Assembly: GCF_963675165.1 (NCBI RefSeq)
Contig: NC_087383.1
Coordinates: forward strand, 4,060,979 to 4,124,978
DNA length: 64,000 nt
Direction of reading: 5' to 3'
Source: Halichondria panicea
Taxonomy: Eukaryota > Porifera > Demospongiae > Suberitida > Halichondriidae
Notes under the pieces: generated by a model
Databases searched by the model: none
What the model saw: only the letters and a program-made list of their open reading frames with translations
Told to the model about the DNA's origin: nothing
Position numbers and translations under genes: made by a program
Shown: positions 1-61,144 of the stretch, one piece after another
How positions within the stretch are numbered: position 1 is the stretch's first letter
Layout: each line of letters opens with the position of its first letter

Positions 1-302
1 GATCACTCTACTAGTCTATGTAAGTAAGTAGAAAGCTGGCCAGCCTAGTTTTAAGTAGACTCTCCATTGTCTGCAGTATAGACTTGATATAATAGCTAGC
101 TACTAGCACATGTCTGCAGTAGACTCTAGCTATAGCTACATGCACAATGACTGAATTAATTTTGTCTGTACACTGAGCTAGATTTTGTGTGAATTTAACA
201 TTATCATTTTTAATTCAGCCAGTCACCTAACTCCTACTTATACTCCCCAATTTATTGTCCATAGAGCCAAATAACTTCTGCATAGGTTATTTGGCTCTAT
301 AC

Positions 303-1620: not shown

Positions 1621-2529
1621 TGATTCAACCGTAATTCATAAAAAGCATTTCTCGGACAAGCAATGCAGGCAGTCAGTCCATCCATACCTTCAGTTATTGT
1701 TACTTTACTCAACTATAGAACGACTCTTGACGTTCCATGGGCAGTAATTCAAATGTTGATTACAATATTTCACTAGATGCAAGATTATTATTCACGGCTC
1801 AGTGCAAAGATAGCCTTTTGAGTAAGTTCGTGACAGAAGATTCAATCATGAGAAACTATATTGAGTTCTGGCTATAGAGATTGAATCAAAGTGTATAGGA
1901 CTATACGTAGACTCTATACTATATAATTTCATTTTGCTGGGCTGATAGACTGGTGTGTACCTGGTTTGTTGCATGACCATGCATGCATCTATATATAGTG
2001 TGTTGTCAGCAGCTAATTACTATAGGTTTTGCTTGAATAGATGTATTACTGTGTATTGTCTTGATAATTTGATATAATATAGTGTGTGTCATGGGTGTAG
2101 ACTAAATTCTATACCAGGATCCATGCAAAACAGTATACACAAACAATCCTCAGTCCTGGCAGTGTATATATACGTAGTCTACACCAGTCCTATATACAAT
2201 AAGTATATGGACGAGCAGTGACAATGAAGTAGGCAGTGATGATGCTGCGATTGAAAGACAGTTATGAGAGAGAGTGAGAAAAACTCTCACTGGATAAATA
2301 CAGGCGTATATAGTTACAACATAAACTACATTGCAAGTAGATGATAATCGCTATAGTTAAGCTTGTAGATTGTACACCATCGTCTCTAGATATAATTATA
2401 TGTCCTATATAGCTGTAATGCAAGGCCGGCCTATATAATTATATAGGCGATAGGAAAATGGGGGTGAGGCTGAAGCCCCCCGCAGGTGATTCTGGTGCAT
2501 CCAAAGCACTTCCTGACACAGTAATTTAT

Positions 2530-2955
2530 GTTGCTTACATTTTATAGAAGGCAAGCATAATTATATCTCTACCAAAGATTGGAGCGCCCCAATAAAAAAG
2601 ACTTACTACTGTCGTGGCCGTACCGTGACCATACCGTGACAATTAATCTGTCAGTATATAAAATGAATAATTATGTCAATAATTTGTTTACACCATAATT
2701 ATAATTAAATACACCAAGCCACAGGTGTTTCAACCATTGACGAAAAGTCTGTCAAAGAAAGAGATTCCATGAAGTGTTCTGGCATAAGCGAAGATAGGTG
2801 CAAAAATAATTATATCAATAGTTCTCGACTCAACCAGAAAATCAAAGGAAGATTTGAGAATAAACGATCCAATGCATTCAAGCAATCCTTATATAATTAT
2901 AGCATCAAGTTCATAATAAACATTATGCATGGACTATCCCGTAGACATACAAAGC
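2530..2955 (+). repeat. Inner inverted-repeat arm, left
   Basis: This stretch pairs with 4985-5345 in reverse orientation. Shared blocks include GAAGGCAAGCATA, GGAGCGCCCCAAT, ACCGTGACAAT with CTGTCAG, GGTGCAAAAATAATTATATC, CTCAACCAGAAAATCAAA and GGAAGATTTGAGAA. Small insertions distinguish the arms. The short reading frame at 2769-2993 lies in this arm and is not credible as a gene. Confidence 0.85.
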
Positions 2956-3729
2956 AAGATAATAATACAACGTACATACCAGACAGGCTTTAATTAATAT
3001 GGCCGGGGCTGTTAAAATAATGTTGTGTCGTTGAAACTTAATTATCCAACTGATAGCCTCCCTCACACATATATAGGGCAATATTCTAGATTTATATATT
3101 TTAACAGATACACCAAGAGAGGCCGGTATAGTGGATCAACCATATATAACTATACTCCGACGATCACTTCTTAGTTTTATTCTCTCTCACAGCCAACTAT
3201 ATAGTTATAATCCGCCTATTTGATCCACAAGTAACCTTTTTTTTACAATTCAAGCTATAATTATAACTTCAGCAGTACTTCCACCCAATCATCTCCCTAA
3301 CCCTCCCAATAATTATGTTAAAACTGCCTATTCATATAGAACTAAAAACAGACAACATCAGCTATTGTATATACAGACATGCAACGGCCACAACAGCGTC
3401 CTTAACTGGTTCACCAAGGAATAAGACATAACGTTAAAAACTTGCATGGATTAAGGAAATATACACTACTATCAAGCTATGCAAACTAGAGGAACTGCAA
3501 TTACAAAACCAATCCCTGATCCTAAAATTGATTATGACACAAACCTATAGCAAAAACTCTAGCAGCCAACCCCAAGAAGCTGTTCTCTAAATCCACTATA
3601 CCTATGCCCTTGTAACAGATGTATCGTGAACTGCATGCATAAGAACTTACCAGAACTATAGCTAGTGTTAACAATCTGCCTATAATGTTATGTGTTTGTC
3701 CATTACAATTTTTACTCAGCGGCATCATA

Positions 3730-4035
3730 CACAAAGTAACATGACTCGCGCACGTGATGAAGTATACTGTAATCTCCTAGAAAATGTTAACCGTGACGTT
3801 TTTAGGGGCGCATGTACAATGACATCTGATTCTAGCTATATTCGTTTGCGTTCAACGTTCAGAGCTGCTCACTGCACACTGATAGAAGACGATCTTTTCA
3901 CAAAAATCATAAATAGAGACAATAGTCGGGTTGATCCTCTTCACTTCCACTCTTTACTCACTGCTAACAAATTCTGTGCGTTGCGTAATGTGTGCGCAAG
4001 CTTGCGCAATTGACAGGATATCACGTTACTTTGTG
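3730..4035. mobile_element. Possible 306-bp MITE in the loop
   Basis: The stretch starts CACAAAGTAACATGA and ends with the near-perfect complement TCACGTTACTTTGTG (14 of 15). It is richer in CpG than its surroundings and holds an open 107-codon frame (3690-4013) with no family resemblance that I recognise. No clear target-site duplication is visible, so this is a weak call. A diverged exon remnant is the alternative. Confidence 0.35.
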
Positions 4036-4984
4036 AACAGTTTTGTGTATAGAGGTATTGGTAGTTCGACACTCTTCTCTTCTTATATTATTTATACTCT
4101 TGCCGTTAACGTATAGTGCTATATTAATGATATAGTAACTATATTATTTCTAGCACAATACGTATATACGGTATCTCACATAATACCATGGCATAGTTAT
4201 AGCCATGGGTATACATGTATAACATGCACTCAGCCATAATTTTCATATAATTATCAGTTCACCAATAGTGTGTAATGTTATTCACATGCATGCACACAGT
4301 ATACAGGTAACAGAGCTTTTCCAGTTTGAAAGAGTATGCCCTATATAATTATTTAAATACACTAGCTGAGTTTTGAAAAAAGTGAGACAAATTGTATGAC
4401 ACTATTAGATGCTTAAAACTACTGAAATTTTTTATCTGCATGTTCCCATATAATATGCATAAATGACCTGATCATGACATCTTCAGCAGATTACATCAAG
4501 AACGAAGACATTATCAAACTCTATTCTTCTATAAATAATGCTCATAGGACACATGCATGCAGGACACCATCAATGTGTACAGATACCAACTGACCTCACA
4601 GAATCTATTGGTTCCTAAATTAAACAGCATTGCAGTTATAGCAGATCTATATAATTATATATATAGAATGCACATTGTTAATTATTACAGCATAAAACAA
4701 TTTATGCATGCAGTTACCTTGCCCTAGCTGGGATTGAGATGTCTCAGTATAATTATATAGCACTGCTTCAAATAATTTTCACTTTCAGCGTCATAGTGAC
4801 ACACACAACTCAGAACGTCTTTCACACTCAAGCCGAACCAGAAATCCAAAATCAACAAAAATTGAAAATCAGCAAAAAAAATCTGGAGACGCAACTGCTG
4901 ATTGCTTTGTTGCTTTGTGCAAAATGAGATACTCCGAAAAGACATCAATGCGCAAGACATTATCCACTTGCAATTGTACCTAAA

Positions 4985-5345
4985 TTATATGTCTACATGC
5001 AGGATAGTCTATCATGCTCATTAGAACTTGACGCTAAGGATTGCACTGGACGTAATTATTAAAGCATGGTTTTCTCAAATCTTCCTTTAATTTGATTTTC
5101 TGGTTGAGTCAGGAACTATTGATATAATTATTTTTGCACCTCTAATGCTCGAATTTCTTTTTAATCTCCCTTCGATGGCATCCTTTTTCTTCTGTACGTA
5201 ACACATGCGCTTTTCTTTCTGGTTGGTTAATGGGTTTCAATTTCACCCACTGACAGATTGTCACGGTATATGTGTATGGTAGTAAGCCTTTATCATTGGG
5301 GCGCTCCGATCGTTGGTAGGGATATGCTTGCCTTCCAATATGGGG
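4985..5345 (-). repeat. Inner inverted-repeat arm, right
   Basis: Reverse-complement partner of 2530-2955. It ends toward the loop near GTCTACATGCAGGATAGTCT, matching the left-arm GGACTATCCCGTAGAC. No gene is seen here or in the loop between the arms. Confidence 0.85.
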
Positions 5346-5470
5346 ACGATTATTTTAAGAAACTGGCCTGGCACGTATTACCACAAAACTAAAACTATAA
5401 ACGTAGTAAACATTGCATAACCATTACGTAATTAACACATTGTACACATCGACAGTTTATGTTGTAACTA

Positions 5471-6945: not shown

Positions 6946-7249
6946 TATATATGCCTGTATACCTCTGATTCAGCACATTATGAGTATTCCTCGCTCACTC
7001 TCATATCTTCTTCAATCTCTAGTATTGCAGCATCATCTGCCTACTTCATGATATCGTCCTGCTTATCCATATACCTACATCTATATTGTATAGCTGTAGA
7101 CTATAATATAATTATACACAACAGGACTTGACTATATAATGAAGATTGTTTGTGTATCATTACTGTGTTGGATCCTGGTATAGAATTTACCTTATAATGT
7201 TATTATTAAGGGGTGTTTCAACAAAATTAATTTTCAGGGTTTCTGTTTA

Positions 7250-8535
7250 CGAATCACTGTTCTTGGAAAGTCAATAAGTTCTAGTCAATTAAAGTAACCT
7301 CAGAATTGTAAACTTGGGTATAATTATAATTATAGGTATTAGTTGATACATGCTTGTCTAAGAACAGTATACTGAACATTTTCAGGGTCAAGTTCCGTTT
7401 ACGAATCACTGCATGCTCTTGGAAAGTCTAAAAAGTTGCTCAGTAAGTTCCCAGTCGATTAAATTAACCCGAGAAGAGTGTATCAACGTATTGATTGATA
7501 CCTGCTGGTCTAAAACCAGCACTAAATATACTTTCTGGGTTTCCGTTTACGAAGCACTGCTCTCGGAAAGTCTGAAAAGTTTCTCAGCTAGTTCTTGCTC
7601 AGCAAGTTCCAGTCGATTAAAGTAACCTCAGAATTGTAAACTTGAGTATAATTATATCAAATACTGGCTGCATGATATCTGCATGCATGTCTAGACCAGC
7701 ACTGAATATGTTATTTTTCAGGGTTCCCGTTAACAAACCATAGCTCTCGGAAAGTCAGAAAAGTTGCTCAGCAAGTTCCCAGTCGATTAAAGTAACCTCA
7801 GAAGAGTGTATCAACGTATTGGCTGCTATACCTGCTTGTCTAAGACCAGCATTAAATATATTTTCTGGGTTTCCGTTTACTAAGCACTGCTCTCGGAAAG
7901 TCAGAAAAGTTTCTCAGCAACTTCCAGTCGATTAAAGTAACCTCAGAAGAGTATATATCAACATACTGGCTGATATCTGCATGCATGCATGTCTAGACCA
8001 GCATGCACTGAATATATTATTTTTCAGGGTTCCCGTTAATGAACCACAGCTCTCGGAAAGTCAGAAAAGTTTCTCAGCAAGTTCCAGTCGATTGAAGTAA
8101 CCTCAGAAGAGTATAATTATATCAACATACTGGCTGATATCTGCATGCATGTCTATAGACCAGCACTGAATATATTATTTTTCAGGGTTCCCGTTAACGA
8201 ACCACAGCTCTCGGAAAGTCAGAAAAGTTGCTCAGCAAGTTCCAGTCGATTAAAGTAACCTCAGAATTGAGTATAATTTATATCAAATACTGGCTGATAT
8301 CTGCATGCATGTCTAGTCCAGCACTGAATATATTATTTTCAGGGTTCCTGTTAACGAATCAGTGCTCTCGGAAAGTCAGAAAAGCTTCTTAGCAAGTTCC
8401 AGTCGATTAAAGTAACTTGAGTATTTCAACATAACTTATTGGCTGATACGTGCTTGTCTATATTATATCAGGACTGAACATAATTATTCCAGTTCCCGTT
8501 CTCGAATCATGGCTCTCAGAAAGTCAGAAAAGTGG
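7250..8535 (-). repeat. Right-arm tandem array, inverted copy
   Basis: Nine units of the same repeat lie in reverse orientation. The core GGAAAGTC is at about 7265, 7421, 7565, 7749, 7895, 8055, 8213, 8369 and 8518. It mirrors the left array in unit number and in the order of outer degenerate units, which supports a single inverted-repeat element rather than two independent satellites. Confidence 0.93.
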
Positions 8536-9169
8536 CTCGGCGTGTTTCAGTAGAGCCAAATAACCTCAGGACAATAAATTGGGGAGTATAAGTAGGAGTT
8601 AGGTGACTGGCTGAATTAACACACCTTAAAAAATGATAATGTTAAATTCACACAAAATCTAGCTCTGTGTACAGACATAATTCATTCAGTCATTGTGCAT
8701 GTAGCTAGCTAGAGTCTACTGCAGACATGTGCAAGTAGCTAGCCATATTATCGAGTCTATATTGCAGACAATGAAGAGAATGAAGAGTCTACTTACCTGA
8801 CTCTTAAAACTAGGCTGGCCAGCTTTCTACTTACTTACACTGATAGTAGTAGAGTGATCAGGCAAGAGCACATCTCATTACATCTGCGCAAAGTCAAGGG
8901 TTAACCTTGGAATGCATTGCCCTGCTACGCCCACTCATTTACTCTTCACTTCCGCTTTTTCCGATTTCTGGCTTTCTGGTCCTACAAGCGCGAGGGCCTG
9001 AGAAACTACAAATTGACTTTGCATGGCCTTACAGCACCATGCGAATTGATCAACCATCGCAAAGTTCGCAAAGAATGTATACAGTACATGTACAATTGAT
9101 ATAATTATGATAGCCTCTTGGAAACAGCTACTATATAGTAGATCTACTCTACGTTCTTATAGCTCAGCG

Positions 9170-9850
9170 CCAAACTAAAATTATGGTTTTTTTGTGCGCC
9201 ACTGGAAAATCATAATTAGCGCTGTAATTAAAAGAAAGACGGTATGACAAACTCAAGCATGCACAGCTAGATCGAATATATGAAATACAGCGGTCCGCTA
9301 AAATAATTATGCCTTTTAGTGTACTGTGTGCCTGCATGCATGAGTAAGGGCCGAATACATTCAAATTGAAGAACAATACCATTGATCATAGCTAGGATTG
9401 AGAACAAGAGTGCATGCACCAATAATGTTTTGCCACTTTTGTCGTAAAGGCAACCCACTGCATGTATTATATTGGCAGAGTTGAGTGCAAGAACTATAGC
9501 TAAGCGGCAGAGTCAGCTCAAGATTGACAAGGGTTTAATTAACAACGATATAGACAATTGTAACAACTGACAAAACAGAGACATACATGCACCAAAAACA
9601 AGAGAAATGCGCAGGGTCTCTTTACAGCTATTGTTAACTAAGTAAACAATGTACATGTACGCAAATAATAACACATAATTATACCATCCAGTTGATCATA
9701 AGTAGATCTAGTATAGCAATGTTTTTAAAGCACTTGCACACGTAAGCCTGACATAAGCGAAGCAATAAATATTAGTTGATAACCGAAATACACAGCCCAG
9801 CAAAGAAACGGTATTGGTCTTTGAACGCATCCTGCAGATGTCCAGTATCA
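9170..9850 (-). pseudogene. Inverted relic of beta-helix receptor 3' end
   Basis: On the minus strand the sequence reads LLVHALLFSILAMIN, close to the DALLFSILAMIN membrane segment of the intact gene, and further up the reverse complement matches the gene stretch around 14985-15020 (GACCAATACCGTTTCTTTGC). Reading frames are broken. The relic lies between inverted copies of GGCCTGAGAAACTAC (8995-9021 and 9906-9931), so it may have been carried or captured by a transposon. Its counterpart in block B is at 54000-54610. Confidence 0.75.
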
Positions 9851-9952
9851 GTTTTACTATACTGGACTCATGTTGACTAGAAAGCTAGCTATAATTAAGG
9901 CCAAACAAAGTCAATTTGTAGTTTCTCAGGCTATTCCTAAAATACCGTATAG

Positions 9953-10373
9953 CTGGTAATTTTCGTGGGGCAAAATGTTCGTGGTTTTCGTGGTTGAAGC
10001 ATATATAGATAAACCATAGTCTCGCCATACATAATTATGAATTGGTATGGTGACTATATATTATAGCCAGGTTTTCACGTCGAGTTCTGGAAATTCGGAA
10101 CGATGGCATTTCCAAGAAAAAAATGTACTGCAAAAGGGGCGTCGTTTATACAATTGTCCATGCACCATTGCTAAAAGACGACTGGCTACCAGGCTACATT
10201 GTATTACTGTACAGTTGATTGTACAATCAGGCACTCTAAAATTAAGATCAATACTATAATAATAATCATATAGTATATGGCCCGGGAGACTATAATATGA
10301 TAAACCATACTTAGTCTACCATAATTATACTATAAAAATTAAGCCCCTCAGAAATTTCGCGCTATATACGGTA
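9953..10373. mobile_element. MITE with CCGTATAG-type termini (block A)
   Basis: It starts TACCGTATAGCTGGTAATTT and ends with the inverted motif CGCGCTATATACGGTA. It belongs to the family also seen at 31402, 35437, 45294 and 63384. The partner copy in block B is 54727-55140, so this insertion predates the duplication. There is no coding potential. Confidence 0.75.
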
Positions 10374-10479
10374 ATTATTAACTGTGTTGGCATAATAATT
10401 ATAGTCCCAAAGTTTACTCCTGTTAAAACAACTGTCGTGGATCAGCAAGCTTGTTTGTTTATCGAATGTTTCTGCTGAA

Positions 10480-11000
10480 ATTGTTTGCTCTTTTGTTTTG
10501 CCTTTGGGAAGCTATATTATAATGATGTCATGTAGTAATTGTACGGTCTCATGCAGAAACGTACTTTTTCATTTCACAGTTCCCATGCCACGAGTGTCTC
10601 TGATGATACTATATAACTACTGCATGGCACTGACAGTTGGACCTACACTATAGATCTATATAAAGTAATATACAAGTATATAAGTCTGTCGTCTTCTATA
10701 CAATGGAGACTATAAGCTTATGGGTTTGAATATGCATTATATACCCGCTAATTTTCTTCCTGTTTACGTAGCTGTACCTCCAATGCTTTGACAGTCCACG
10801 AACACACTAGCTCACAGCATGTGTTCGATTTGCTGAGAATAAATGAACCAGCAGATTACATGTAAAGTCTATAATTATGGAAAAAATCGAGCTAATGTTC
10901 AATTCCATCCAGGGTGCATTATATGCTGGGCTGTATTTCGCGTATCGACTCAGAGCTTCTCTTATATCTTTATACGTTTGCATGCTTTGAATAATTATGC
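10480..11000 (+). pseudogene. Direct relic of beta-helix receptor 3' portion
   Basis: Blocks match the intact gene in order: TTTTGCCTTTGGGAAG (gene ~14433), ACGAGTGTCTCTGATGAT (~14667), GTTGGACCTACA (~14707), GTACCTCCAAT, then GGTGCATT..GCTGGGCTGTATTTCG (~14976-15019). Intervening coding sequence is lost and the frame is destroyed. It lies about 800 bp upstream of the intact gene, and the same relic occurs upstream of the second copy (55250-55740). An older local duplication therefore preceded the large one. Confidence 0.8.
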
Positions 11001-11783
11001 TATACATGTACATGCATGCATGCACCAGCTTGGTATCACCTGCAGAGCTCAGTATAATTATTTATGGGCTTCTTCTGCATGGTATCACTGCATGTATATA
11101 GTATACTAACACGGTCGTCTAGATCAGTTCTACTATATAGACTGTGTATTATAGTGCAGCAGTCGGTATTAATATCCTCCACGTCTATAATACTTACATT
11201 ATAGGTATTTTGGTAGATCTAATAATTTCCTATAGTGTATGGATTTTGTGTAATTCTATAGATTCCTACACTGCACGGGAAATTTTGCACTATCTTTTGT
11301 TAAGTATATACGTTTGCAGGAAACACGAAATATATTTCTCAGGAAAGGTGCAGATTTTTAAGCCTGCATGCACTGTAGCAGGAAATGTAAGGCATGTCAT
11401 TGTGCTTACATCACATGTCAGTATAATTATAGTCAAATTTGCTCAGTCATAATTATATAACATCACATTTTTGATTGAAGTAAACATTATACAATCCCAA
11501 GTTTGATACTGTCAAGTCCATAATAATTATAAGATACGTTTGTGTCTCTACAATCCCTATATATACATGACTGTATGTGTGTTTTAGACTAGATTATCGT
11601 GAAAAGAGAAAGAAAACATGAAAATGTTGAATTAGTTATTTATGAAAGCTATATAATCTAATCTAAAGTTGACCTGTTACAAAGCTGTAGTGGGGAATTA
11701 TCAGGCCCTTTAGTATATATCTATATAACACCTACAGACTAGCTAGTTGTGACAAAATAATTATATAGTAGTATACACAAGCA

Positions 11784-14700
11784 ATGGCTAGCCTACTTCT
11801 TTTTGCCGTCATTTTTAGCCTTTACTTTGGTCCCTCGTTCACCACTAACAAAGACTGGAACTATCTGAATGTTCCTTGCAATGAAGGAAATGTATCCTTT
11901 GAAGCATTGAGAACTGTAACTAGCAAGACAGATATACACCTGGATCACTGTACATTTAATCTGAGGTCCCTACTAAATATTTCAGACATAAACGACCTTC
12001 GTATTATTGGCAGTGGTGATGGAACAGTGATTAACTGTACAAGTGGCAATGCTGGTCTATTGTTCACAAGGATTACTAACCTTTTGTTAGAGAGTTTGAT
12101 TATACGCAATTGTGGAGTAAAAGTGCATGGTGATGATGGGTTGCAACTTGCTAGCGTTCAAATCGTGGAAGGTAAAAAAGTAACCATCATGAATGTGACT
12201 ATAGAAAATGGTACAGGAACTGGTTTATCTCTTGTCAACATTAAGGGTGCTGTGATGGTTGAGAATTGCATATTTCGCCACAATCTATATTATGTAGATC
12301 GAATGTATCGTGCTGGGAATACTATATATAATGACTTTACCCAAAGAGGTGGAGGTATGCAAATAATTCTTGGAAGCCAAATTATTAAAAAACACTACAA
12401 TAGTACATATAGCATTCAAGGGTGCCAGTTTTTGTACAATTATGCTTCCAGTGGGGGAGGTCTATTTGTTATGATTTCTCATGCAAAGAACAATTGTGTT
12501 ATTATTGAAAATAGTACCTTTACTGAGAATAGATGCCAAAATGGTGGAGGCGGAGTACAGTTTGGCTATGCAGTTCCTCGTCATCGTTTCTCACAAAAAG
12601 TAAAAGCAAACTTAATTATATTCCAAAACTGTATGTTTAAAGGCAATGCAGCTGGGTATGGTGGAGGAGCATCAATATTCTCTTCTTTGCATTTGAAAAA
12701 CATGATTAAGCTGGAAGATTGTTTATGGACTAGAAATACCGCCACTAAACATGGAATGGCCCTTGATATTGCTACTGCTCCTTGGGAGACATATAATAGG
12801 GCTGATGATTTTCCTAATCTTACACCTACGTTCAGATGTTGTAGTTTTACAAACCATACTCATTCTGCTTTTCTCAGCAGCCCGAAAAGTGTTTTCACCG
12901 TAACAAGATACCAGGTAACTTTTGAGGGGGAAATACTTTTTGAAAGAAACAATGGTACTGCAATTGAGGCCACATCAGCTGAACTGAATTTCGCTAAACA
13001 ATCGAATGTTAAATTTATTAACAATCAAGGAATCGATGGTGGGGCATTGAGATTGAAAGGAGTATCCATGATGATTGTTCAGAAGTATTCTACAATTTTG
13101 TTTTGGAAAAATAGGGCTGTGAAAAGTGGAGGTGCCATATACGTTGATTCTTCTGACAGACTTTCTGAGCCTTTTTGTTTTATTAAGACCAAAAGCATCA
13201 AAAACCAAACTTTCTTCATATTCAAAGATAATACAGCAGGTTTTGAAAATTCTCGACAAAGAGGTGACTCAATATATGCTTCATCTATTTTGCCCTGTCT
13301 TGAAAGATGTTCACATGATTTTCTATATAACGTGTCAGTGCCAGAAGCGTTAGAATGCATGGGTAACTTCGTATTTGAGGCAGTAAGTTCTAGACGACAG
13401 CTTATCTCTGCACCACATCATTTTTCAAGAATTGATTTAGCGAGTGAGCAAGATTCAATGTGTATGTTGTTTATGGTGAATGAAACAATTTACTCAAACC
13501 AGAATTACGTTGTGATGAATGTCGAGGACTGTATTGATATGCACGGATGTTTGAAAGCCATACCTGGCAAAACTACCAAGATACCTCTTAAACTAGTGGA
13601 TGAACTTTGTGGAGAAGTTATTTTTCATATATCAGTAGAAGTGTTGAATTCAAACAATGGAAGTATATTTATTGATTCAACACACTCAATAATTACCAAC
13701 AATTTTATCACAATATATGGAAATCCAAATGACTTCGGCACTTTACAGTTTTCTGCTCCTGGAGTATCTTGTGTCAAACTGTCTGTCAAATTAGATGATT
13801 GCCCCCCTGGTTATATACATGATAATATCAGTAAGAGTTGTGTGTGTTCTTCGGCTACACTATTAAGCTATGATGGAATTGAGAAGTGCAGCGAAACTAA
13901 CTTCACAGCGTACGTACATCATGGGTATTGGTTGGGATACACCATTAATAAGACTAAGACACGACAGGACCGCTTAGCTTCTGCGATATGCCCCAAAGGT
14001 TTTTGCATCACTACATTTTCCTCAGCTGAATACCCACTAACAAATGTATCTTTGGACGATTTGAGCCCATACATCTGTAACGAAAAAAGAAAAGGCATTA
14101 TTTGTGGCAGTTGCAAAAAACATAACTCTGCATATTATCGCTCTTCTTCATTCTCATGCAAACCCAATAATTTGTGCTACCTGGGATGGTTATTCTACAT
14201 TCTGTCCGAGATAATTCCGGTAACTGTTTTGTTCTTTATTGTCATTTACTTCAACTTGTCATTCACATCTGGTGCCTTGAATGGTGTTATTTTCTTCATG
14301 CAAATAATAGATACTTTTAAAATCGATGGTGAAAACTTTATACAATTCACTAAAGAAGTAAAACAACTGGCACGGATTCACAAGCTTGTTTATCGTGTAT
14401 TTCTACTCAAATTTGTTGCTCTTGAAGAAGCTTCGTTTTGCCTTTGGGAAGGTGCTACTGCCCTTGACATGCTAGCGTTTAGGTATGTCACTATCATGTA
14501 CAGCTTGTTTCTAGTAATTGTTACCGTCATCTTCCTAAAGAAATGTACATTCCGACTTCGCTGTTATCAGGTATCAAAACAGTTAAAAAACGAACAACTA
14601 AACTTGAAGCATTCCATACTTAATGGACTGTCAGCATTTCTGGTGATGAGTTACTCTGAATGCACACGAGTGTCTCTGATGATTCTAACTACTGGAACAC

Positions 14701-15479
14701 TGACCGTTGGACCTACAACTAAACAAAAGTTTGAGCCTGTCGTCTTCTATAATGGAGAGTATTCCTTCATGGGTAAAGAACATTTGAAGTATGCGTTGCC
14801 AGCCCTTTTCTTCCTTTTTACGATTGTAGTTGTACCTCCAATACTTTTGATTGTCTACCCACTGTGTTACAAACTGTTCGCTTTGCTGAGGATAAACGAA
14901 TCAAAGTGTGTCCAAATTACATGTAAGGTCATTCCCTTAGAGAAAATCAAGCCGATGTTCGATTCCATTCAGGGTGCATTCAAGGACCAATACCGTTTCT
15001 TTGCTGGGCTGTATTTCGTTTATCGACTCGGTGCTTCTCTTACCTTTTCGTTCCCAAGTGCTTTGAAAACATATTACACTGCAACTGGTGCTCAGTTGAT
15101 ATTCATGTTGATGGTACATGCAGTGTGTTGTCCTTACCGACAAAAGTGGCACAACGTTTTGGATGCCCTCTTGTTCTCAATCCTAGCCATGATCAATGCA
15201 ATATCGTTCTTCAATTATAAACGTAATCAATCGGATGTAACGTATTTAGCAGGAGTTCAATGCGTACTAATTTTGCTTCCATTGGTATATTTGGTCATAT
15301 ATACCACATACAACATCTATTTGAAGATTAAGACTGCCATGGCCTCATGCTCAAAAAGAAACGATACAGAAGACGAAGATCACGATTTAAATGGGATTTT
15401 AGATATAGTGGATGCAAGAATTATCGAACAAGAAGATGTTGGGGAAACAAATGATTACATGTTACTGAAAGCGAAGTAG
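11784..15479 (+). CDS. Secreted beta-helix, multi-pass membrane receptor-like protein, copy A
   Basis: Single-exon 1231-residue frame. Residues 1-21 look like a signal peptide (hydrophobic, ending near PSFTT). Residues ~30-480 resemble a right-handed parallel beta-helix: repeated N-rich rungs and GGG/GGA turns (RGGGMQI, SGGGLFV, NGGGGVQ, YGGGASI, DGGALRL, SGGAIYV), with many N-x-S/T sequons. Residues ~665-790 are cysteine-rich (CPPGY, CVC, CNEKRKGIICGSC). From ~797 on there are about eight or nine hydrophobic segments (LGWLFYILSEIIPVTVLFFI, then near 900, 945, 1003, 1069, 1102, 1126 and 1156). An acidic cytosolic tail follows. A PYRQKWHNVLDALLFSILA motif sits before the last helices. No named family is certain; a surface recognition or adhesion receptor is inference. 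It is almost identical to the gene at 56526-60218. Confidence 0.93.
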   Translation: MASLLLFAVIFSLYFGPSFTTNKDWNYLNVPCNEGNVSFEALRTVTSKTDIHLDHCTFNLRSLLNISDINDLRIIGSGDGTVINCTSGNAGLLFTRITNLLLESLIIRNCGVKVHGDDGLQLASVQIVEGKKVTIMNVTIENGTGTGLSLVNIKGAVMVENCIFRHNLYYVDRMYRAGNTIYNDFTQRGGGMQIILGSQIIKKHYNSTYSIQGCQFLYNYASSGGGLFVMISHAKNNCVIIENSTFTENRCQNGGGGVQFGYAVPRHRFSQKVKANLIIFQNCMFKGNAAGYGGGASIFSSLHLKNMIKLEDCLWTRNTATKHGMALDIATAPWETYNRADDFPNLTPTFRCCSFTNHTHSAFLSSPKSVFTVTRYQVTFEGEILFERNNGTAIEATSAELNFAKQSNVKFINNQGIDGGALRLKGVSMMIVQKYSTILFWKNRAVKSGGAIYVDSSDRLSEPFCFIKTKSIKNQTFFIFKDNTAGFENSRQRGDSIYASSILPCLERCSHDFLYNVSVPEALECMGNFVFEAVSSRRQLISAPHHFSRIDLASEQDSMCMLFMVNETIYSNQNYVVMNVEDCIDMHGCLKAIPGKTTKIPLKLVDELCGEVIFHISVEVLNSNNGSIFIDSTHSIITNNFITIYGNPNDFGTLQFSAPGVSCVKLSVKLDDCPPGYIHDNISKSCVCSSATLLSYDGIEKCSETNFTAYVHHGYWLGYTINKTKTRQDRLASAICPKGFCITTFSSAEYPLTNVSLDDLSPYICNEKRKGIICGSCKKHNSAYYRSSSFSCKPNNLCYLGWLFYILSEIIPVTVLFFIVIYFNLSFTSGALNGVIFFMQIIDTFKIDGENFIQFTKEVKQLARIHKLVYRVFLLKFVALEEASFCLWEGATALDMLAFRYVTIMYSLFLVIVTVIFLKKCTFRLRCYQVSKQLKNEQLNLKHSILNGLSAFLVMSYSECTRVSLMILTTGTLTVGPTTKQKFEPVVFYNGEYSFMGKEHLKYALPALFFLFTIVVVPPILLIVYPLCYKLFALLRINESKCVQITCKVIPLEKIKPMFDSIQGAFKDQYRFFAGLYFVYRLGASLTFSFPSALKTYYTATGAQLIFMLMVHAVCCPYRQKWHNVLDALLFSILAMINAISFFNYKRNQSDVTYLAGVQCVLILLPLVYLVIYTTYNIYLKIKTAMASCSKRNDTEDEDHDLNGILDIVDARIIEQEDVGETNDYMLLKAK

Positions 15480-16440
15480 GAAAGTGTCAACAATTAATAT
15501 TCTCACGCAGTATATATATAATTATACATAATAATAATGCATAATTATAATTATTACGCATACATTATACACATACAATCACTACAATCACTGTATTTGT
15601 GCTTCACATGCAGTAAAATTCGTAAAAATTATGTCATCACAATGCACATGTCTCTTCATACAATATTGCATGTTAGCTATACATTTCTAAATCTGCTAGT
15701 CTAGTCTGTTTTAATTATATTCTGTGACAGTATTGCACCCTAGCTAAGCGGAGAATAGAAATGAACAACAAAACTTGGAGAGAAAGTTGCAATAAATTGA
15801 AAACATTACTACAATTCCTTAAATGCAGCGATAATGTTCCAATTGTGGTACTGGGAAGCAAAAAGTAGAAATGTGAATGGAATATTCAGTATTCGAATCA
15901 CGAAGAACAATAATTATTATTAGGGGATCAAGAGAATGACTCCATTGACATAATTATAGTTTTTTGGTATCTTGTTACTGTATACGTGTAGCTATATATA
16001 TAGAGGGTGTGCATGTGGCCGTTTGGATCAGCTGGAAAAACAAGCATAATTATGATTTGGTGAATGTAAATATGAGCCACATGCTTGTGATAATTATATA
16101 CAACAAATGATTATGCCTATATAAACATGCATGCATGCATGTGTGAGGAAGACTTGAAATTTCATTTGGAAATAGCTATAATAGCATGCAGTATACATGT
16201 AGCCTCCGAGTTGTCTTTTTAAATAACGCCCATTTGTTTTTACAGTGTATAGGTCGCCAACTAGGCATTTCGCAAGAACAACACACTTATATTAGTTAAA
16301 GTTACTTCACTTCATGATGAATGTATTGCTGGATATTCTTGACAAATTTTATAGTGTGTCAATTTTTTATTGGACTATAGCTACAGGATCATCAGGGTCT
16401 ATGTATGCCAATAACTGTGCCCCCCCTCCCTTTTTACACA
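15480..16440. other. Intergenic, no gene seen (block A)
   Basis: AT-rich 3' flank of the beta-helix gene with many ATAATTATA and GCATGCATGC palindromes. No coding, RNA or complete transposon feature is apparent. It aligns with 60219-61134 apart from numerous short palindromic indels. Confidence 0.6.
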
Positions 16441-18400
16441 CAGGCCTCACCACTGTCACCAGGTGTTCGCTTCATGGGTGAGGGTTACAGACACTTTACC
16501 GTGGCTCAGCGAGTGGAGGAAATGGCTATTGAATTCAGAACATCTCAACTCCTACAAGTCAACACTCAGGTATAATGTAATGTGGTTCACATTAAGCAAC
16601 TATTATATATATATAGAGAGTTCATATTTATCTTATTGCTGTGTTAATTCTGTTCCTGTGACTACTTTGAGTTGTCATGCATAACCTCAACTGCAAGTAT
16701 AGTACAATAATTATTATTATAGCTCTTATATAATTGTAATTATGGTGTCCTTCATTAATTTCCTGCAGCCTCCATTCGCTCAGTTCTATATCACACTCGA
16801 GTGAGGCTGGACTTGGTTCCTACACTTTTGTGTCTGCCACGCCAATCGATGGCACACCGTCGTCATAGCAAAATGAGTATACAGTAGTTGTATAACTTAT
16901 GTGCCTGGCTATCACAGTACATTCGCATCGTTTCTGCAGCTGCTGTACACTTTGCAAGTACGTACCATCATCCAAAGCTATTATATACATTTGCATTTCC
17001 AAATACACACGTATATATACCATGCATAGAGCAGTGCGCACATGCATCTCCCACTGATTATAGTGCACTCTCCAGCTCAACACTGACTGTGGACGATGAG
17101 GCCATAAATCCCCTGGTGGGCGGGTCACCTGATCAGACCAGTGCCGTGGTGGGAGAGAGTTTGAGAGGATGTGTGAGGAACTTGCAATAATTATAACGGA
17201 TATAGTGAGGAATACTATAGCATACTCTAGAACAACCACCCACCATTTGAACTTACCCTAATGAAACCTCTAATTTATAACGAACATCTTATACATATAA
17301 TTTTAGTACAAGTTGCCTCGAGTCTTACAATAACGTTGCCACTTTCAACGCTGACTCATACCTCCAATTATGTAAGTTACGGTAGCCGAGAATGGTCATT
17401 AGAAACAACCGCGCGCGCTTTATGTGCATGCCTACTGCGAGTGTTTATATTTAAGCACGTGCGGTCAACGGAAACTCTGCGCTCGCTTAGAATTGAAGCG
17501 TGCGCGGTTCATTGTGGCGGTATAGGCGGAGGCGAGTAGCCTGTTTTGGCCACCGTAGTAAGTCTCCTTTTTCTAGCTCATCCATGCATGCTTTGTTGAG
17601 GTTTTATACCAAATGCTTATTGTGTGTTGTCTCTGCAGTGGACAACTTTGGTGGAATCAGCTTCTCGTTCTCGCTGCATTTCCGTACCAGTTCCTGTTCC
17701 GGACTACTCCTCTACTCCCACATCGCTCTCGAACTACTCAATGGAACAGTGAGTCCACATGCAGTCATTTCAGCATATATTATAGTAGCTTAGGTGTTGA
17801 CCTCAAATTAAAGTTAGACTAAGTCTAGTCTGCAAAAAAAAAATCGCTGCATTATGCTTTTTCTTTTACTAGCTATTTAATTTCGTGTGTGTATTATTAT
17901 AGGTGCAGTTTGTGTTTGACAATGGTCCCATGGAGGCGGTGGTGGAGTACACACCCCTAGCCCTGCCCACCTGTGTGATAACAAGTGGCATACCCTTCGT
18001 GCTGAGAAGGATGGTGTGAGAGGTGTGCTAATCGTGGACAAGGGGGACCCTGTCAGTGTCTCCGCCCGCTCCCCCCACCCCAGCTTCAGGGCCGTTAACA
18101 TCAACGACCCCCTCTATGTTGGGGGTATGGCTGGTGAGGGCTCATTCATTGCCACTACTGTCATTGTATACTTAAAAAAACGAATGTTTATTGCACAATT
18201 AATATGAAGAGCTATAATTATCTGTTATAATAATTACAATAGCTATTTAAACGTTGATGTGTTTCTTTCTTTCTGCAGCTACTGTTCGTAGACGTTTCAC
18301 ATCTCAAGCTCCCTCGTTCCAAGGTTGTATTGCAAACCTCTACCTGAGTCAAGGGGAGGAGATCCCAGGAGACTGCTGCTGGCTCAGGCAGTGGAGGGGA
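16441..18400 (+). pseudogene. Laminin-G domain exons, decayed
   Basis: Exon-like pieces with AG/GT borders encode laminin-G strands. 16441-16570 reads FMGEGYRHF..IEFRTSQLLQVNTQ. Around 16770-16870 there is NRWHTVVIAK, interrupted by stops. 17062-17190 reads STLTVDDEA..GCVRNL. A second domain follows: 17637-17750 (FSLHFRTSSCSGLLLYSH), 17904-18130 (DNKWHTLRAEKDGVRG..LYVGG) and 18279-18400 (FQGCIANLYLS). In the 17904 exon the QFVFDNG half and the DNKWHT half are in different frames, and the 16770 exon contains a stop. It is therefore probably a dead fragment of an extracellular laminin-G protein. Only the first domain is present in block B (61145-61720). Confidence 0.75.
17380..17540. other. CpG-rich patch
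   Basis: A short GC- and CpG-rich island (CCGCGCGCGC, GTGCGGTCAACGG, GCGTGCGCGG) lies in otherwise AT-rich DNA, between the two laminin-G domains and absent from block B. It could be a promoter remnant or a transposon piece; no gene is assigned. Confidence 0.4.
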
Positions 18401-43012: not shown

Positions 43013-43049
43013 GTGCGTGGATGTGTCTGTGTGTGTGTGCACTTTGCTA

Positions 43050-43892: not shown

Positions 43893-43999
43893 TACATGTG
43901 TAGCTTATCACAAGTTATTACAATTGCTGGACTTAACAAAAGGACTTATTGTAAATCCTGTCCTAACTACAGAGACATTTTGATGCTAAAACCTTAGTA

Positions 44000-44810: not shown

Positions 44811-44869
44811 TAACTTCCATGATTGTATCTGTTGGTTAAGAGTTTATTATGTTTTCCTGTTTCTTTGCA

Positions 44870-53756: not shown

Positions 53757-53999
53757 TTTCCAAGCGGGAGGGCCTGAGTAACTATGAATTGACTTTGCAT
53801 GGCCTTACAGCACCATGCGAATTGATCAACCATCGCAAAGTTCGCAAAGAATGTATACAGTACATGTACAATTGTGATAGCCTCTTGGAAACAGCTACTA
53901 TAGTAAATCTACTCTACGTTCTTATAGCTAAGCGCCAAACTAGAATTATGGTTTTTTTGTGCGCCACTGGAAAATCATAATTAGCGCTGTAATTAAAAG

Positions 54000-54610
54000 A
54001 AAGACGGAAAGACGGTATGACGGTATGACAAACTCAAGCATGCACATGCAGCTAGATCGAATATATGATACAGCAGTCCACTAAAATAATTATGCCTTTT
54101 AGTGTACTGTGTGCCTGCATGCATGAGTAAGGGCCGAATACATTCAAATTGAAGAACAATACCATTGATCATAGCTAGGATTGAGAACAAGAGTGCATGC
54201 ACCAATAATGTTTTGCCACTTTTGTCATAAAGGCAACCCACTGCATGTATTATATTGGCAGAGTTGAGTGCAAGAACTATAGCTAAGCGGCGGAGTCCGC
54301 TCAAGATTGACAAGGGTTTAATTAACAACGATATAGACAATTATAACAACTGACAAAACAGAGACATACATGCACCAAAAACAAGAGAGACATGCAGGGT
54401 CTCTTTACAGCTATTGGTAACTAAGTAAACAATGTACATGTACGCAAATAACAACACATAATTACACCATCCAGTTGATCATAAGTAGATCTAGTATAGC
54501 AATGTTTTTAAAGCACTTGCACACGTAAGCCTGACATAAGCGAAGCAATAAATTAGTCGATAACCGAAATACACAGCCCAGCAAAGAAACGGTATTGGTC
54601 TTTGAACGTA
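54000..54610 (-). pseudogene. Inverted relic of receptor 3' end, block B
   Basis: Counterpart of 9170-9850: LLVHALLFSILAMIN on the minus strand at about 54170-54220 and a broken match to the gene's GACCAATACCGTTTCTTTGC further along. It is framed by inverted GGCCTGAG..TTGACTTTG motifs at 53771 and 54690-54715. Confidence 0.75.
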
Positions 54611-54726
54611 TTCTGCAGATGGCCAGTATCAGTTTTACTATACTGGACTCATGTTGACTAGAAAGCTAGCTATAATTATTAAGGCCAAACAAAGTCAATT
54701 TGTAGTTTCTCAGGCTATTCCTAAAA

Positions 54727-55140
54727 TACCGTATAGCTGGTAATTTTCGTGGGGCAAAATGTTCGTGGTTTTCGTGGTTGAAGCATATAGATAAACCATA
54801 GTCTCGCCATACATAATTATGAACTGGTATATAGCCAGGTTTTCACGTCGAGTTCTGGAAATTCGGAACGATGGTATTTCCAAGAAAAAAATGTACTGCA
54901 AAAGGGGCGTCGTTTACAATTGTTCATGCACCATTGCTAAAAGATGACTGGCTACCAGGCTACATTGTATTACTGTATACAGTTGATTGTACAATCAGGC
55001 ACTCTAAAAGATCAATACTATAATAATATCATATAGTATATATATGGCCCGGGAGACTATAATATGATAAACCATACTTAGTTTACCATAATTATACTAT
55101 AAAAATTAAGCCCCTCGGAAATTTCACGCTATATACGGTA
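54727..55140. mobile_element. MITE with CCGTATAG-type termini (block B)
   Basis: Same insertion as 9953-10373, carried along in the duplication. Short indels distinguish the two, such as the loss of GGTGACTATATATT-type sequence near 54830. Confidence 0.75.
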
Positions 55141-55249
55141 ATTATTAACTGTGCATGTTGTTTTATAATTATAGTCCCAAAGATTACTCCTGTTAAAACA
55201 ACTGTCATGGATCAGCAAGCTTGTTTGTTTATCGAATGTTTCTGCTGAA

Positions 55250-55740
55250 ATTGTTTGCTCTTTTGTTTTGCCTTTGGGAAGCTATATTATAATGATGTCA
55301 TGTAGTAATTGTACGGTCTCAGAAACGTACTTTTTCATTTCACAGTTCCCATGCCACGAGTGTCTCTGATGATACTATAATTATAACTACTGCATGGCAC
55401 TGACAGTTGGACCTACACTATATAGATCTATATAAAGTAATACAAGTTTATAAGTCTGTTGTCTTCTACAATGGAGACTATATAAGCTTATGGGTTTGAA
55501 TATGCATTATATAGCCGCCAATTTTCTTCCTGCATGTTTACGTAGCTGTACCTCCAATGCTTTGACAGTCCACGAACACACTCACTGCATGTGTTTGATT
55601 TGCTGAGAATAAATGAACCAGCAGATAACATGTAAAGTCTATAATTATGGAAAAAATCGAGCGTTCAATTCCATCCAGGGTGCATTATATGCTGGGCTGT
55701 ATTTCGCGTATCAACTCAGAGCTTCTCTTATATCTTTATA
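55250..55740 (+). pseudogene. Direct relic of receptor 3' portion, block B
   Basis: Counterpart of 10480-11000, with the same order of gene fragments and the same breaks. It lies ~790 bp upstream of the intact copy B. Confidence 0.8.
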
Positions 55741-56525
55741 TGTTTGCATGCTTTGAATATGCTATACATGTACATGCATGCACCAGCTTGGTATCACCTG
55801 CAGAGCTCAATATAATTATTTATTATGGGCTCCTGCATGGTATCACTGCATGTATAGTATACTGACACGGTCGTCTAGATCAGTTCTACTATATAGACTG
55901 TGTATTATATAGTGCAGCAGTCGGTATTAATATCCTCTAGGTATTTTGGTAGATCTAATAATTTCCTATAGTGTATGGATTTTGTGTAATTCTATAGATT
56001 CCTACACTGCACGGGAAATTTTGCACTATCTTTTGTTAAGTATATACGTTTGCAGGAAACACAAAATATATTTCTCAGGAAAGGTGCAGATTTTTAAGCC
56101 TGCATGCACTGTAGCAGGAAATGTAAGGCATGTCATTGTGCTTACATCACATGTCAGTATAATTATAGTCAATTTGCTCAGTCATAATTATATAACATCA
56201 TATTTTTGATTGAAGTAAACATTATACAATCCCGAGTTTGATACTGTCAAGTGCATAATAATTATAAGGTACATTTGTGTCTCTACAATCCCTATATATA
56301 CATGACTGCATGTATGTTTTAGACAAGATTACCGTGAAAAGAGAACGAAAACATGAAAATGTTGAATTTGTTATTTATGAAAGCTATATAATCATAATCT
56401 AAAGTTGACTCCTGTTACAAAGCTGTATAGTGGGGAATTATCAGGCCCTTTAGTGTATATATCTATATAACACCTACAGACTAGCTAGTTGTGACAAAAT
56501 AATTATATAGTAGTATACACAAGCA

Positions 56526-59500
56526 ATGGCTAGCCTACTTCTTTTTGCCGTCATTTTTAGCCTTTACTTTGGTCCCTCGTTCACCACTAACAAAGACTGG
56601 AACTATCTGAATGTTCCTTGCAGTGAAGGAAATGTATCCTTTGAAGCATTGAGAACTGTAACTAGCAAGACAGATATACACCTGGATCACTGTACATTTG
56701 ATCTGAGGTCCCTGCTAAATATTTCAGACATAAACGACCTTCGTATTATTGGCAGTGGTGATGGCACAGTGATTAACTGTACAAGTGGCAATGCTGGTCT
56801 ATTGTTCACAAGGATTACTAACCTTCTGTTGGAGAGTTTGATTATACGCAATTGTGGAGTAAAAGTGCATGGTGATGATGGGTTGCAACTTGCTAGCGTT
56901 CAAATCGTGGAAGGTAAAAAAGTAACCATCATGAATGTGACTATAGAAAATGGTACAGGAACTGGTTTATCTCTTGTCAACATTAAGGGTGCTGTGATGA
57001 TTGAGAATTGCATATTTCGCCACAATCTATATTATGTAGATCGAATGTATCGTGCTGGGAATACTATATATAATGACTTTACCCAAAGAGGTGGAGGTAT
57101 GCAAATAATTCTTGGAAGCCAAATTATTAAAAAACACTGCAATAGTACATATAGCATTCAAGGGTGCCAGTTTTTGTACAATTATGCTTCCAGTGGGGGA
57201 GGTCTATTTGTTATGATTTCTCATGCAAATAACAATTGTGTTATTATTGAAAATAGTACCTTTACTGAGAATAGATGCCAAAATGGTGGAGGCGGAGTAC
57301 AGTTTGGCTATGCAGTTCCTCGTCATCGTTTCTCACAAAAAGTAAAAGCAAACTTAATTATATTCCAAAACTGTATGTTTAAAGGCAATGCAGCTGGGTA
57401 TGGTGGAGGAGCATCAATATTCTCTTCTTTGCATTTGAAAAACATGATTAAGCTGGAAGATTGTTTATGGACTAGAAATACTGCCACTAAGCATGGAATG
57501 GCCCTTGATATTGCTACTGCTCCTTGGGAGACATATAATAGGGCTGATGATTTTCCTAATCTTACACCTACGTTCAGATGTTGTAGTTTTACAAACCATA
57601 CTCATTCTGCTTTTCTCAGCAGCCCGAAAAGTGTTTTCACCGTAACAAGATACCAGGTAACTTTTGAGGGGGAAATACTTTTTGAAAGAAACAATGGTAC
57701 TGCAATTGAGGCCACATCAGCTGAACTGAATTTCGCTAAACAATCGAATGTTAAATTTATTAACAATCAAGGAATCGACGGTGGGGCATTGAGATTGAAA
57801 GGAGTATCCATGATGATTGTTCAGAAGTATTCTACAATTTTGTTTTGGAAAAATAGGGCTGTGAAAAGTGGAGGTGCCATATACGTTGATTCTTCTGACA
57901 GACTTTCTGAGCCTTTTTGTTTTATTAAGACCAAAAGCATCAAAAACCAAACTTTCTTCGTATTCAAAGATAATACAGCAGGTTTTGAAAATTCTCGACA
58001 AAGAGGTGACTCAATATATGCTTCATCTATTTTGCCCTGTCTTGAAAGATGTTCACATGATTTTCTATATAACGTGTCAGTGCCAGAAGCGTTAGAATGC
58101 ATGGGTAACTTCGTATTTGAGGCAGTAAGTTCTAGACGACAGCTTATCTCTGCACCACATCATTTTTCAAGAATTGATTTAGCGAGTGAGCAAGATTTAA
58201 TGTGTATGTTGTTTATGGTGAATGAAACAATTTACTCAAACCAGAATTACGTTGTGATGAATGTCGAGGACTGTATTGATATGCACGGATGTTTGAAAGC
58301 CATACCTGGCAAAACTACCAAGATACCTCTTAAACTAGTGGATGAACTTTGTGGAGAAGTTATTTTTCATATATCAGTAGAAGTGTTGAATTCAAACAAT
58401 GGAAGTATATTTATTGATTCAACACACTCAATAATTACCAACAATTTTATCACAATATATGGAAATCCAAATGACTTCGGCACTTTACAGTTTTCTGCTC
58501 CTGGAGTATCTTGTGTCAAACTGTCTGTCAAATTAGATGATTGCCCCCCTGGTTATATACATGATAATATCAGTAAGAGTTGTGTGTGTTCTTCGGCTAC
58601 ACTATTAAGCTATGATGGAATTGAGAAGTGCAGCGAAACTAACTTCACAGCGTACGTACATCATGGGTATTGGTTGGGATACACCATTAATAAGACTAAG
58701 ACACAACAGGACCGCTTAGCTTCTGCGATATGCCCCAAAGGTTTTTGCATCACTACATTTTCCTCAGCTGAACACCCACTAACAAATGTATCTTTGGACG
58801 ATTTGAGCCCATACATCTGTAATGAAAAAAGAAAAGGCATTATTTGTGGCAGTTGCAAAAAACATAACTCTGCATATTATCGCTCTTCTTCATTCTCATG
58901 CAAACCCAATAATTTGTGCTACCTGGGATGGTTATTCTACATTCTGTCCGAGATAATTCCGGTAACTGTTTTGTTCTTTATTGTCATTTACTTCAACTTG
59001 TCATTCACATCTGGTGCCTTGAATGGTGTTATTTTCTTCATGCAAATAATAGATACTTTTAAAATCGATGGTGAAAACTTTATACAATTCACTAAAGAAG
59101 TAAAACAACTGGCACGGATTCACAAGCTTGTTTATCGTGTATTTCTACTCAAATTTGTTGCTCTTGAAGAAGCTTCGTTTTGCCTTTGGGAAGGTGCTAC
59201 TGCCCTTGACATGCTAGCGTTTAGGTATGTCACTATCATGTACAGCTTGTTTCTAGTAATTGTTACCGTCATCTTCCTAAAGAAATGTACATTCCGACTT
59301 CGCTGTTATCAGGTATCAAAACAGTTAAAAAATGAACAGCTAAACTTGAAGCATTCCATACTTAATGGACTGTCAGCATTTCTGGTGATGAGTTACTCTG
59401 AATGCACACGAGTGTCTCTGATGATTCTAACTACTGGAACACTGACCGTTGGGCCTACAACTAAACAAAAGTTTGAGCCTGTCGTCTTCTATAATGGAGA

Positions 59501-60218: not shown

Positions 60219-61134
60219 AAGCGAAGTAGGAAAGTGTCAACAATTAATATTCCCAGTAGATTCATAATAATTATTCCCAATGAATAATGCATATAAATCA
60301 TGACTACAATCACTGTACTTGTGCTTCACATGTAGTAAGATTCGTAAAAATTATGTCATCATAATGCACATATCTCTTCATACATTTATCTTGAATTGAT
60401 GTTAGCTAGATCTAGATCTATATAAATCTGCTAGTCTGTTTTAATCATATTCTGTGGCAGTATTGTATTCATAGCACCAGCTAAGCGGAGAATAGAAATG
60501 AACAATAGATCAGAATGAACAATAGATCAGAACTTGGAGAGAAAGTTGCAATAAATTGACAACATAACTACAATTCCAGTTATAATTAAATGCAGCGATA
60601 TATAAATAAATGTTCCAATTGTGGTACTGGGCAGCAAAAAGTAAAAATGTGAATGGAATATTCAGTATTCGAATCACGAAGAACAATAATTAATATTAGG
60701 GGATCAAGAGAAGGACTCCATTGACATAGTCTATTTTGCATGGTATCTTGTTACTGTACGTGTAGCTATAGAGGGTGTGCATGCGTGTGCATGCATGTGG
60801 CCGTTTGCATGGATCAGCTGGAAGCAAGAAAAAATAATTATGCCTAAACATGCATGCATGTGAGGAAGACTTGAAATTTCATTTGGAAATAGCATGCAGT
60901 ATACATGTATATAGGCATCCTAGCCTCTGAGTTGTCTTTTTCCTAGGTCGCCAACTAGGCATTTTGCAAGAACAACACACTTATTAGTTAAAGTTACTTC
61001 ACTTAATGATGAATGCATTGCTGCATGGATATTCTTGACAAATTTTTATAGTGTGTCCATTTTTTATTGAGACTATAGCTACCGGATCATCAGGGTCTAT
61101 GTATGCCAATAACTGTGCCCCCCCTTCCTTTTTA
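60219..61134. other. Intergenic, no gene seen (block B)
   Basis: 3' flank equivalent to 15480-16440, AT-rich. It differs from block A by duplicated GAACAATAGATCAGAA (60500-60531) and by added GCATG units. Confidence 0.6.
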
Positions 61135-61144
61135 CAGACATGCA

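Follow-up and report, generated by a model that had tools for sequence, protein, structure and literature searches.

Short self-complementary insertions at YpA steps in noncoding DNA of the sponge Halichondria panicea

The locus and the differences between its duplicated blocks

The window analysed here is a 64,000-nucleotide stretch of the genome of the demosponge Halichondria panicea (NC_087383.1 of assembly GCF_963675165.1; G000:C7:4060979-4124978 in our own numbering of the assembly, which comprises 131 Mb in 39 contigs). NACHT-LRR genes, reminiscent of sponge immune-receptor genes, occupy long open frames in the window, which also contains two collinear paralogous blocks, A and B, in each of which noncoding flanks surround a large open reading frame (ORF; Table 1). 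Comparison of these blocks with each other, and of the copies of a large repeated element at the left end of the window, makes it very likely that noncoding DNA gains short self-complementary units through a directional, sequence-specific mutational process, which acts mostly at YpA steps (TA, CA/TG). The process is seen in two unrelated sequences, one of which has copies on eleven other contigs.

Global alignment of block A with block B (8985-16686 against 53761-61386) gave 7290 matches, 157 mismatches and 77 indels, among which 11 are of one base, 21 of two, 4 of three and 19 of four. An indel is called palindromic here if it is self-complementary in at least one of its equivalent alignment placements. 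By this definition 15 of the 19 four-base indels are palindromic, compared with a share of 0.16 (p = 3e-9; null range 0.13-0.16) when random insertions, tandem duplications or deletions are simulated within the same sequence, an excess of the kind that the initial annotation, made from the window alone, had anticipated from a full tabulation. TA or AT accounts for 15 of the 21 two-base indels. Three alternative gap schemes agree, with palindromic shares among four-base indels of 15/17, 14/16 and 14/18, and rule out an alignment artefact as the source of the excess.

The six CATG/TGCA and two AATT differences between the blocks that had first been reported were all recovered, at most two bases from the positions given for them, and seven further palindromic four-base sites were found (A positions 10240 AATT, 10274 TATA, 10807 CTAG, 11011 CATG, 15542 TAAT, 15680 GATC and 16118 TATA). 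A further AATT case, described as the terminus of a miniature inverted-repeat transposable element at 45294, does read CATAATTATAG, but a visual comparison with related termini does not show a clean 4-bp indel there.

Further copies of both blocks lie downstream, that of block A (A2, 99.4% identical) at G000:C7:4132615-4140297 and that of block B (B2, 97%) at C7:4208993-4215943, so the gene cluster has been duplicated repeatedly. Even these close copies differ by TA units: two between A and A2, one of them at an isolated TA, and three between B and B2, all at isolated TAs. The flanks L086-L088 of the same gene cluster are mostly too diverged for clean counts; the upstream flanks of L087 and L088 differ by 41 indels (palindromic in 3/7 two-base and 3/5 four-base cases), their downstream flanks have 2/2 two-base and 2/4 four-base indels palindromic, and the L086/L088 downstream comparison gave one two-base TA event.

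Replication and direction of the insertions

The large element at 1-8991, the match to whose end begins about 124 bases before the window, has inverted ends of ~1.6 kb built of ~150-160-bp tandem units. It holds no closed open frame of at least 120 aa and is present in many copies, at ~85-99% identity, on many contigs. Its inner segment (fam1) served as an independent replicate and its right end (fam5) as a second segment; the 20 other fam1 copies were taken from the matches listed, lie on eleven contigs and include six partial ones. The majority state was taken as ancestral, a polarity that is safest for singletons.

The palindromic excess recurs in both segments. Among minority-state four-base insertions in fam1, 25 of 28 are palindromic (p = 4.5e-17), as are 7 of 8 in fam5, for a combined 32/36, and the corresponding four-base deletions number four in fam1 and three, two of them palindromic, in fam5. 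Two-base insertions in fam1 number 34, of which 28 are TA or AT, with seven two-base deletions. Twelve of the 28 four-base insertions in fam1 are common to at least two copies; these are inherited rather than read errors, and sequencing error is rejected on this ground.

Two single-copy ATAT to ATAATTAT insertions in the fam5 alignment (7194-8991 with L089-L101) have the same right context (GAATA-TAAT-TATTATTTTTCAGG) and different left contexts. The two may have arisen independently in different repeat units, or a single event may have been displaced by misalignment of the units.

These changes are mostly gains. Single-copy palindromic events of 2 or 4 bp in fam1 and fam5 comprise 43 insertions and 2 deletions, whereas other single-copy indels of up to 6 bp comprise 34 insertions and 23 deletions (Fisher p = 1.7e-5); with multi-copy events included, the palindromic class numbers 65 insertions and 11 deletions. 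For the blocks, a diverged third copy on another contig (outgroup C; L036 on C1, ~75-93% identical in pieces) made 7 of the 15 palindromic four-base sites scorable under a score cut, with some margins small and one site, 10274, messy. Outgroup C has the short form at all seven, so those A/B differences are gains. The alternative that the differences are losses from longer repeats, which had been named as what would overturn the initial proposal, is rejected for the scorable four-base sites by outgroup C, and by the polarity of the singletons. The earlier remark that both directions occur stands in the sense that both blocks gained insertions; the scorable four-base sites are all gains. The dedicated insertion process that had been put forward is thus well supported: by the enrichment, by its recurrence in a second sequence, by the polarity read from the outgroup and by the bias towards insertion.

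Targets, products and possible mechanisms

Pooling the 19 A/B indels with the 36 insertions of fam1 and fam5 gives 55 four-base events. Thirty-five have the form W-rc(W)-W, in which W is the target word and rc(W) its reverse complement, so that what is added is the neighbouring end in reverse complement, as with P nucleotides; 12 have the form W-palindrome-W, two are W-other-W with a 2-bp overlap, and six overlap their target by less than 2 bp. Among the 47 palindromic four-base events, 46 have an overlap of 2 bp or more with the target (21% under random placement) and nine are tandem duplications. The duplication of two target bases in nearly every four-base event, like the regional unevenness described below, goes beyond what the initial annotation had noticed.

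With the strands collapsed, the products are dominated by TA to TATA (36), CA to CATGCA (24), TA to TAATTA (11) and TA to TATATA (6), with AATTAA (twice), AGCTAG, ACGTAC and ATATAT as minor products found once or twice each. The base after a CA target (overlap 2 or 3) is G in 11 of 18 cases (background 0.20, p = 1.7e-4), with 5/6 in A/B and 6/9 in fam1. Isolated TA targets have C or G at 36 of 40 flank positions (background 0.59, p = 2e-5), and in the AATT class the change is ATAT to ATAATTAT in 11 of 13 events. At isolated TA sites with C or G on both sides, the flanks are complementary in 7 of 16, about as expected by chance; the claim that each event creates or lengthens a dyad therefore holds locally but not beyond that.

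Any model has to account for two features. The duplicated target bases call for a mobile element that duplicates 2 bp of its target, or else for a 2-nt stagger whose two sides are both filled in; the palindromic core calls for bases added symmetrically or for the end to be copied in inverted orientation. We tentatively propose end joining of staggered YpA breaks with self-complementary additions, a mechanism to which we give distinctly less than an even chance. Breaks staggered by 2 nt, sometimes 3 nt, would arise at YpA in the germline; fill-in of the stagger would yield the W...W duplication, and end joining would add 0, 2 or 4 self-complementary nucleotides between the two copies of W. The added bases could be P nucleotides, left when closed hairpin ends are opened away from their centre, or could result from addition of the same bases to both ends, and TA to TATA would be the case without addition. 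Net accumulation of such gains would leave noncoding DNA dense in palindromes. The full explanation, that is the insertion process together with this origin in end joining, falls only just short of evenly balanced. In the P nucleotides of T-cell receptor joints, too, one to three bases of the adjacent end are repeated in inverted form; here, however, the target dinucleotide is duplicated as well and the setting is ordinary noncoding DNA. Exons in the genome match DRMBL and the DNA polymerase beta palm, presumably SNM1/Artemis and X-family polymerase domains, and these matches prove nothing about mechanism.

A replication error by hairpin or template switch, in which the nascent strand copies W, its complement and W again, is unlikely. 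W-rc(W)-W is the there-and-back product of such a switch, and two 6-bp events fit a W of three bases (AGT-ACT-AGT in fam1 and CAA-TTG-CAA at 29595/49267). However, units of 2-3 bp would be expected to give no primer pairing, TA-AT-TA does not fit, and flank complementarity is near chance, on which ground hairpin extension is rejected. The hairpin-templated repair once suggested for these insertions is likewise not supported, with units of 2-4 bp and flanks that are self-complementary no more than by chance. An end-joining signature, the other process suggested at the outset, is still the most plausible candidate.

Rather less likely again is that the insertions are footprints left by excised cut-and-paste DNA transposons with a 2-bp target duplication (Tc1/mariner-like, at TA). 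DDE_3 domains, which we take to be of Tc1/mariner type, are plentiful (96 matches, a number of them in open frames longer than 300 aa) and lend this explanation some weight. Resident elements with TA duplications are also present, the W...W duplication fits, target-specific products would be explained naturally, and TACATGTA and TAGATCTA are readable as TA, end bases and TA. Tc1/mariner excision footprints share with the events described here a TA duplication with a few bases between, but the residues here mismatch the resident ends seen, and CA/CAG targets are used too. None of 13 five-base events carries the end bases CAG, CAC or CCG of the three resident families with TA flanks that were seen, and a test for residues of these families between TAs (CAG/CTG/CAC/GTG/CCG/CGG) gave one four-base hit, a CATG-type insertion in which most of the match falls in flanking sequence; footprints of these resident elements are rejected. 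TA elements do not account for the CA, CT, GT and AA targets, and the TA duplication holds for the TA classes only. In fam1 no insertion longer than 18 bp was called, except for a TA-flanked element (fam2, 16 copies) in the window copy; the fam1 copies were fetched as unbroken matches, which under-represent copies bearing residents, and the scarcity of residents is accordingly weaker evidence. The fam2 alignment itself includes insertions of 38-142 bp.

Most signatures of small insertions reflect slippage or simple duplication, and deletions often equal or outnumber them. Slippage during replication of short tandem repeats, on an AT-rich background, is improbable as an account of the whole, and could explain part of the TA class only, about half: among 52 TA-type two-base events, 28 have an overlap of three or more bases with the target, and nine of the 47 palindromic four-base events are tandem duplications. 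The other 38 of 47 overlap their target by less than the inserted unit, which contradicts slippage for most four-base events. Nor are the targets runs of a repeat with balanced gain and loss, since isolated C/G-flanked TA sites and single CA sites (giving CATGCA) are not repeats, and palindromic singletons show 43 gains against 2 losses. Two- and four-base events (61 and 55) moreover outnumber those of one and three bases (27 and 10).

A staggered break of the topoisomerase II (TOP2) type, with fill-in and end joining giving 2-4 bp duplications, has as little to recommend it as slippage. TOP2 produces de novo duplications of 2-4 nt in yeast via nonhomologous end joining (NHEJ), matching human ID17 (PMC11477040). 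The insertions described there likewise make a new repeat and are attributed to double-strand breaks and NHEJ, and TA to TATA fits as a 2-bp duplication; they are, however, plain duplications, whereas the four-base units here are self-complementary, mostly with a 2-bp overlap, and 38 of 47 are not tandem duplications. Exact tandem copies are the rule in the TA class alone. TOP2 duplications are the nearest published process that we found, and no account of insertions such as these appeared among the papers listed by searches of the open-licence PMC literature. The repetitive hairpin-forming elements of sponge mitochondria (PMC2800124) are also recurrent inverted-repeat insertions in intergenic DNA of sponges, but they are mitochondrial hairpin repeats, whereas the events here are nuclear, of 2-4 bp, and on multi-megabase contigs.

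Unevenness, palindromic words and other features of the window

Singleton palindromic insertions number 39 per 223 private substitutions in fam1 and 9 per 81 in fam5. Palindromic 8-mers occur at 19-26 per kb in the A/B flanks, 12.7 in fam1 and 6.2 in 49 kb of genome pieces, and at 5-9 in fam2, in two further families (fam3, window 38600-40780, 10 copies; fam4, L040:85-1108, 32 copies) and in the repeat pair at 22033. Their density peaks where the insertion rate peaks, and the order is not kept among the low-rate sequences; cause and effect in this relation cannot be separated. The densities of TA, C/G-flanked TA and CAG differ across the sequences by about twofold or less, and that of ATAT about threefold, differences too small for the spread in rates, so target density is rejected as the cause of the unevenness.

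The 49 kb, drawn from arbitrary places on seven contigs and compared with a second-order model, are rich in words of the kinds that the insertions make. ATAATTAT occurs 38 times against 1.6 expected, TACATGTA 23 times against 2.4 and TAGATCTA 9 times against 0.7, and CATGCA/TGCATG (90 against 35) and AGCTAG/CTAGCT (72 against 24) are likewise in excess. By word class, W-rc(W)-W stands at 1.87 and 2.25 times expectation, W-palindrome-W at 1.2-1.4 and W-other-W at 1.1; palindromic 6-mers with outer TA reach 2.6-3.1 times and those with outer GC 2.4 times. Most of these words are what the observed insertion reactions would build, and the proposed link to the abundance of ATAATTAT- and CATGCATG-type words is consistent with these data, though not proven. 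The excess of TACATGTA and TAGATCTA would require units of 6 bp, and hardly any such events are seen.

Several observations weigh against the insertion process or its suggested origin. The mechanism leaves the fixed pairing of target and core unexplained (CA takes TG, isolated TA nothing and ATAT AT), and it is drawn from the comparison of sequences. The TA gains that overlap their target by three or more bases, over half of that class, can be ordinary slippage; of the seven two-base TA/AT differences between A and B scorable in outgroup C, five are short and two long; and G follows CA in 0 of 3 fam5 cases. Rates are lower in other families, at 5/101 in fam2, 6/150 in fam3 and 3/120 in fam4, and 13 other aligned repeat pairs of the window, many of them coding, yielded only three clean palindromic events of 2, 4 or 6 bp (63926, 29595/49267 and 29953/49625) when five matched columns were demanded on both sides. 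We found no cause of this unevenness, and fam4 exceeds fam2 and fam3 in palindromic 8-mers yet has the lowest rate. Finally, plain dinucleotide runs (W-W-W) are in excess by 2.06 and 1.63 fold, about equal to W-rc(W)-W.

With these points in mind, we regard it as possible, at somewhat under even chances, that a sequence-specific, strongly insertion-biased activity at YpA writes palindromes of two and four bases, most strongly where palindromes are dense, and that much of the intergenic sequence has been shaped by this one previously undescribed mutational reaction. A process made mostly of gains with a simple rule of target and product would offer a new handle on end-joining chemistry, and an excess of short palindromes could stem from mutation and not from selection for protein-binding sites. 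For this lineage, it also cautions against taking such words for regulatory motifs.

Table 1. Blocks, repeat segments and palindromic four-base differences in the window
Feature	Position	Strand	Remarks
Block A	8985..16686	+	Noncoding flanks around ORF 11784-15479; BLAST and global alignment against block B
Block B	53761..61386	+	Collinear paralogue of block A, around ORF 56526-60218; BLAST and global alignment
fam1	2000..5470	+	Inner segment of large inverted-end element; window copy and 20 others aligned; independent replicate
fam5	7194..8991	+	Right end of same large element as fam1; window copy and 13 others; second segment
AATT insertion in A (AA to AATTAA)	10240..10243	+	Short in B and C
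CATG insertion in A (CA to CATGCA, then G)	10550..10553	+	Short in B and outgroup C
CTAG insertion in A (CT to CTAGCT)	10807..10810	+	Short in B and C
AATT-type, long in A (ATAT to ATAATTAT)	10992..10995	+	A/B alignment; polarity unscored
Extra CATG unit in A within CATG tandem run	11011..11014	+	Overlap 10; ordinary slippage possible
AATT-type, long in A (ATAT to ATAATTAT)	15542..15545	+	A/B alignment; polarity unscored
TATA, long in A, isolated TA	16118..16121	+	A/B alignment; polarity unscored
CATG insertion in B	54045..54048	+	Short in A and C, small score margin
TATA insertion in B	55037..55040	+	C scored short, alignment messy
AATT-type insertion in B (ATAT to ATAATTAT)	55378..55381	+	Short in A; C shorter still
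TGCA insertion in B (TG to TGCATG)	55531..55534	+	Short in A and C
GATC, long in B, flanked by two TA steps	60409..60412	+	Sole palindromic 4-bp event without 2-bp overlap
TGCA, long in B (TG to TGCATG)	60806..60809	+	A/B alignment; polarity unscored
TGCA, long in B (TG to TGCATG)	61022..61025	+	A/B alignment; polarity unscored
CATG, long in B (CA to CATGCA, then G)	61139..61142	+	A/B alignment; polarity unscored

The window also holds mobile elements. A nested element at 5469-6947, which we take to be Tc1/mariner-like, has a TA target duplication and ends CACTGTTAAAA, and other fam1 copies show the corresponding empty site. An element with inverted ends (TACAGTAGCCC...) is present twice, at 43048-43894 and 43998-44812; its 14 listed matches outside these two are 98-100% identical over ~847 bases, and the element was thus probably active recently.

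Related open frames at 26906-29446, 35727-38150 and 46213-48989 on the minus strand share ~90% DNA identity where aligned; the first is NACHT-LRR by Pfam, and the last is split into two overlapping open frames. Noncoding DNA at 10585-10964 in block A is ~67% identical to 14660-15042, the 3' coding part of the large ORF, and is, judging from this resemblance, probably what remains of an adjacent gene from the tandem family to which that ORF belongs.

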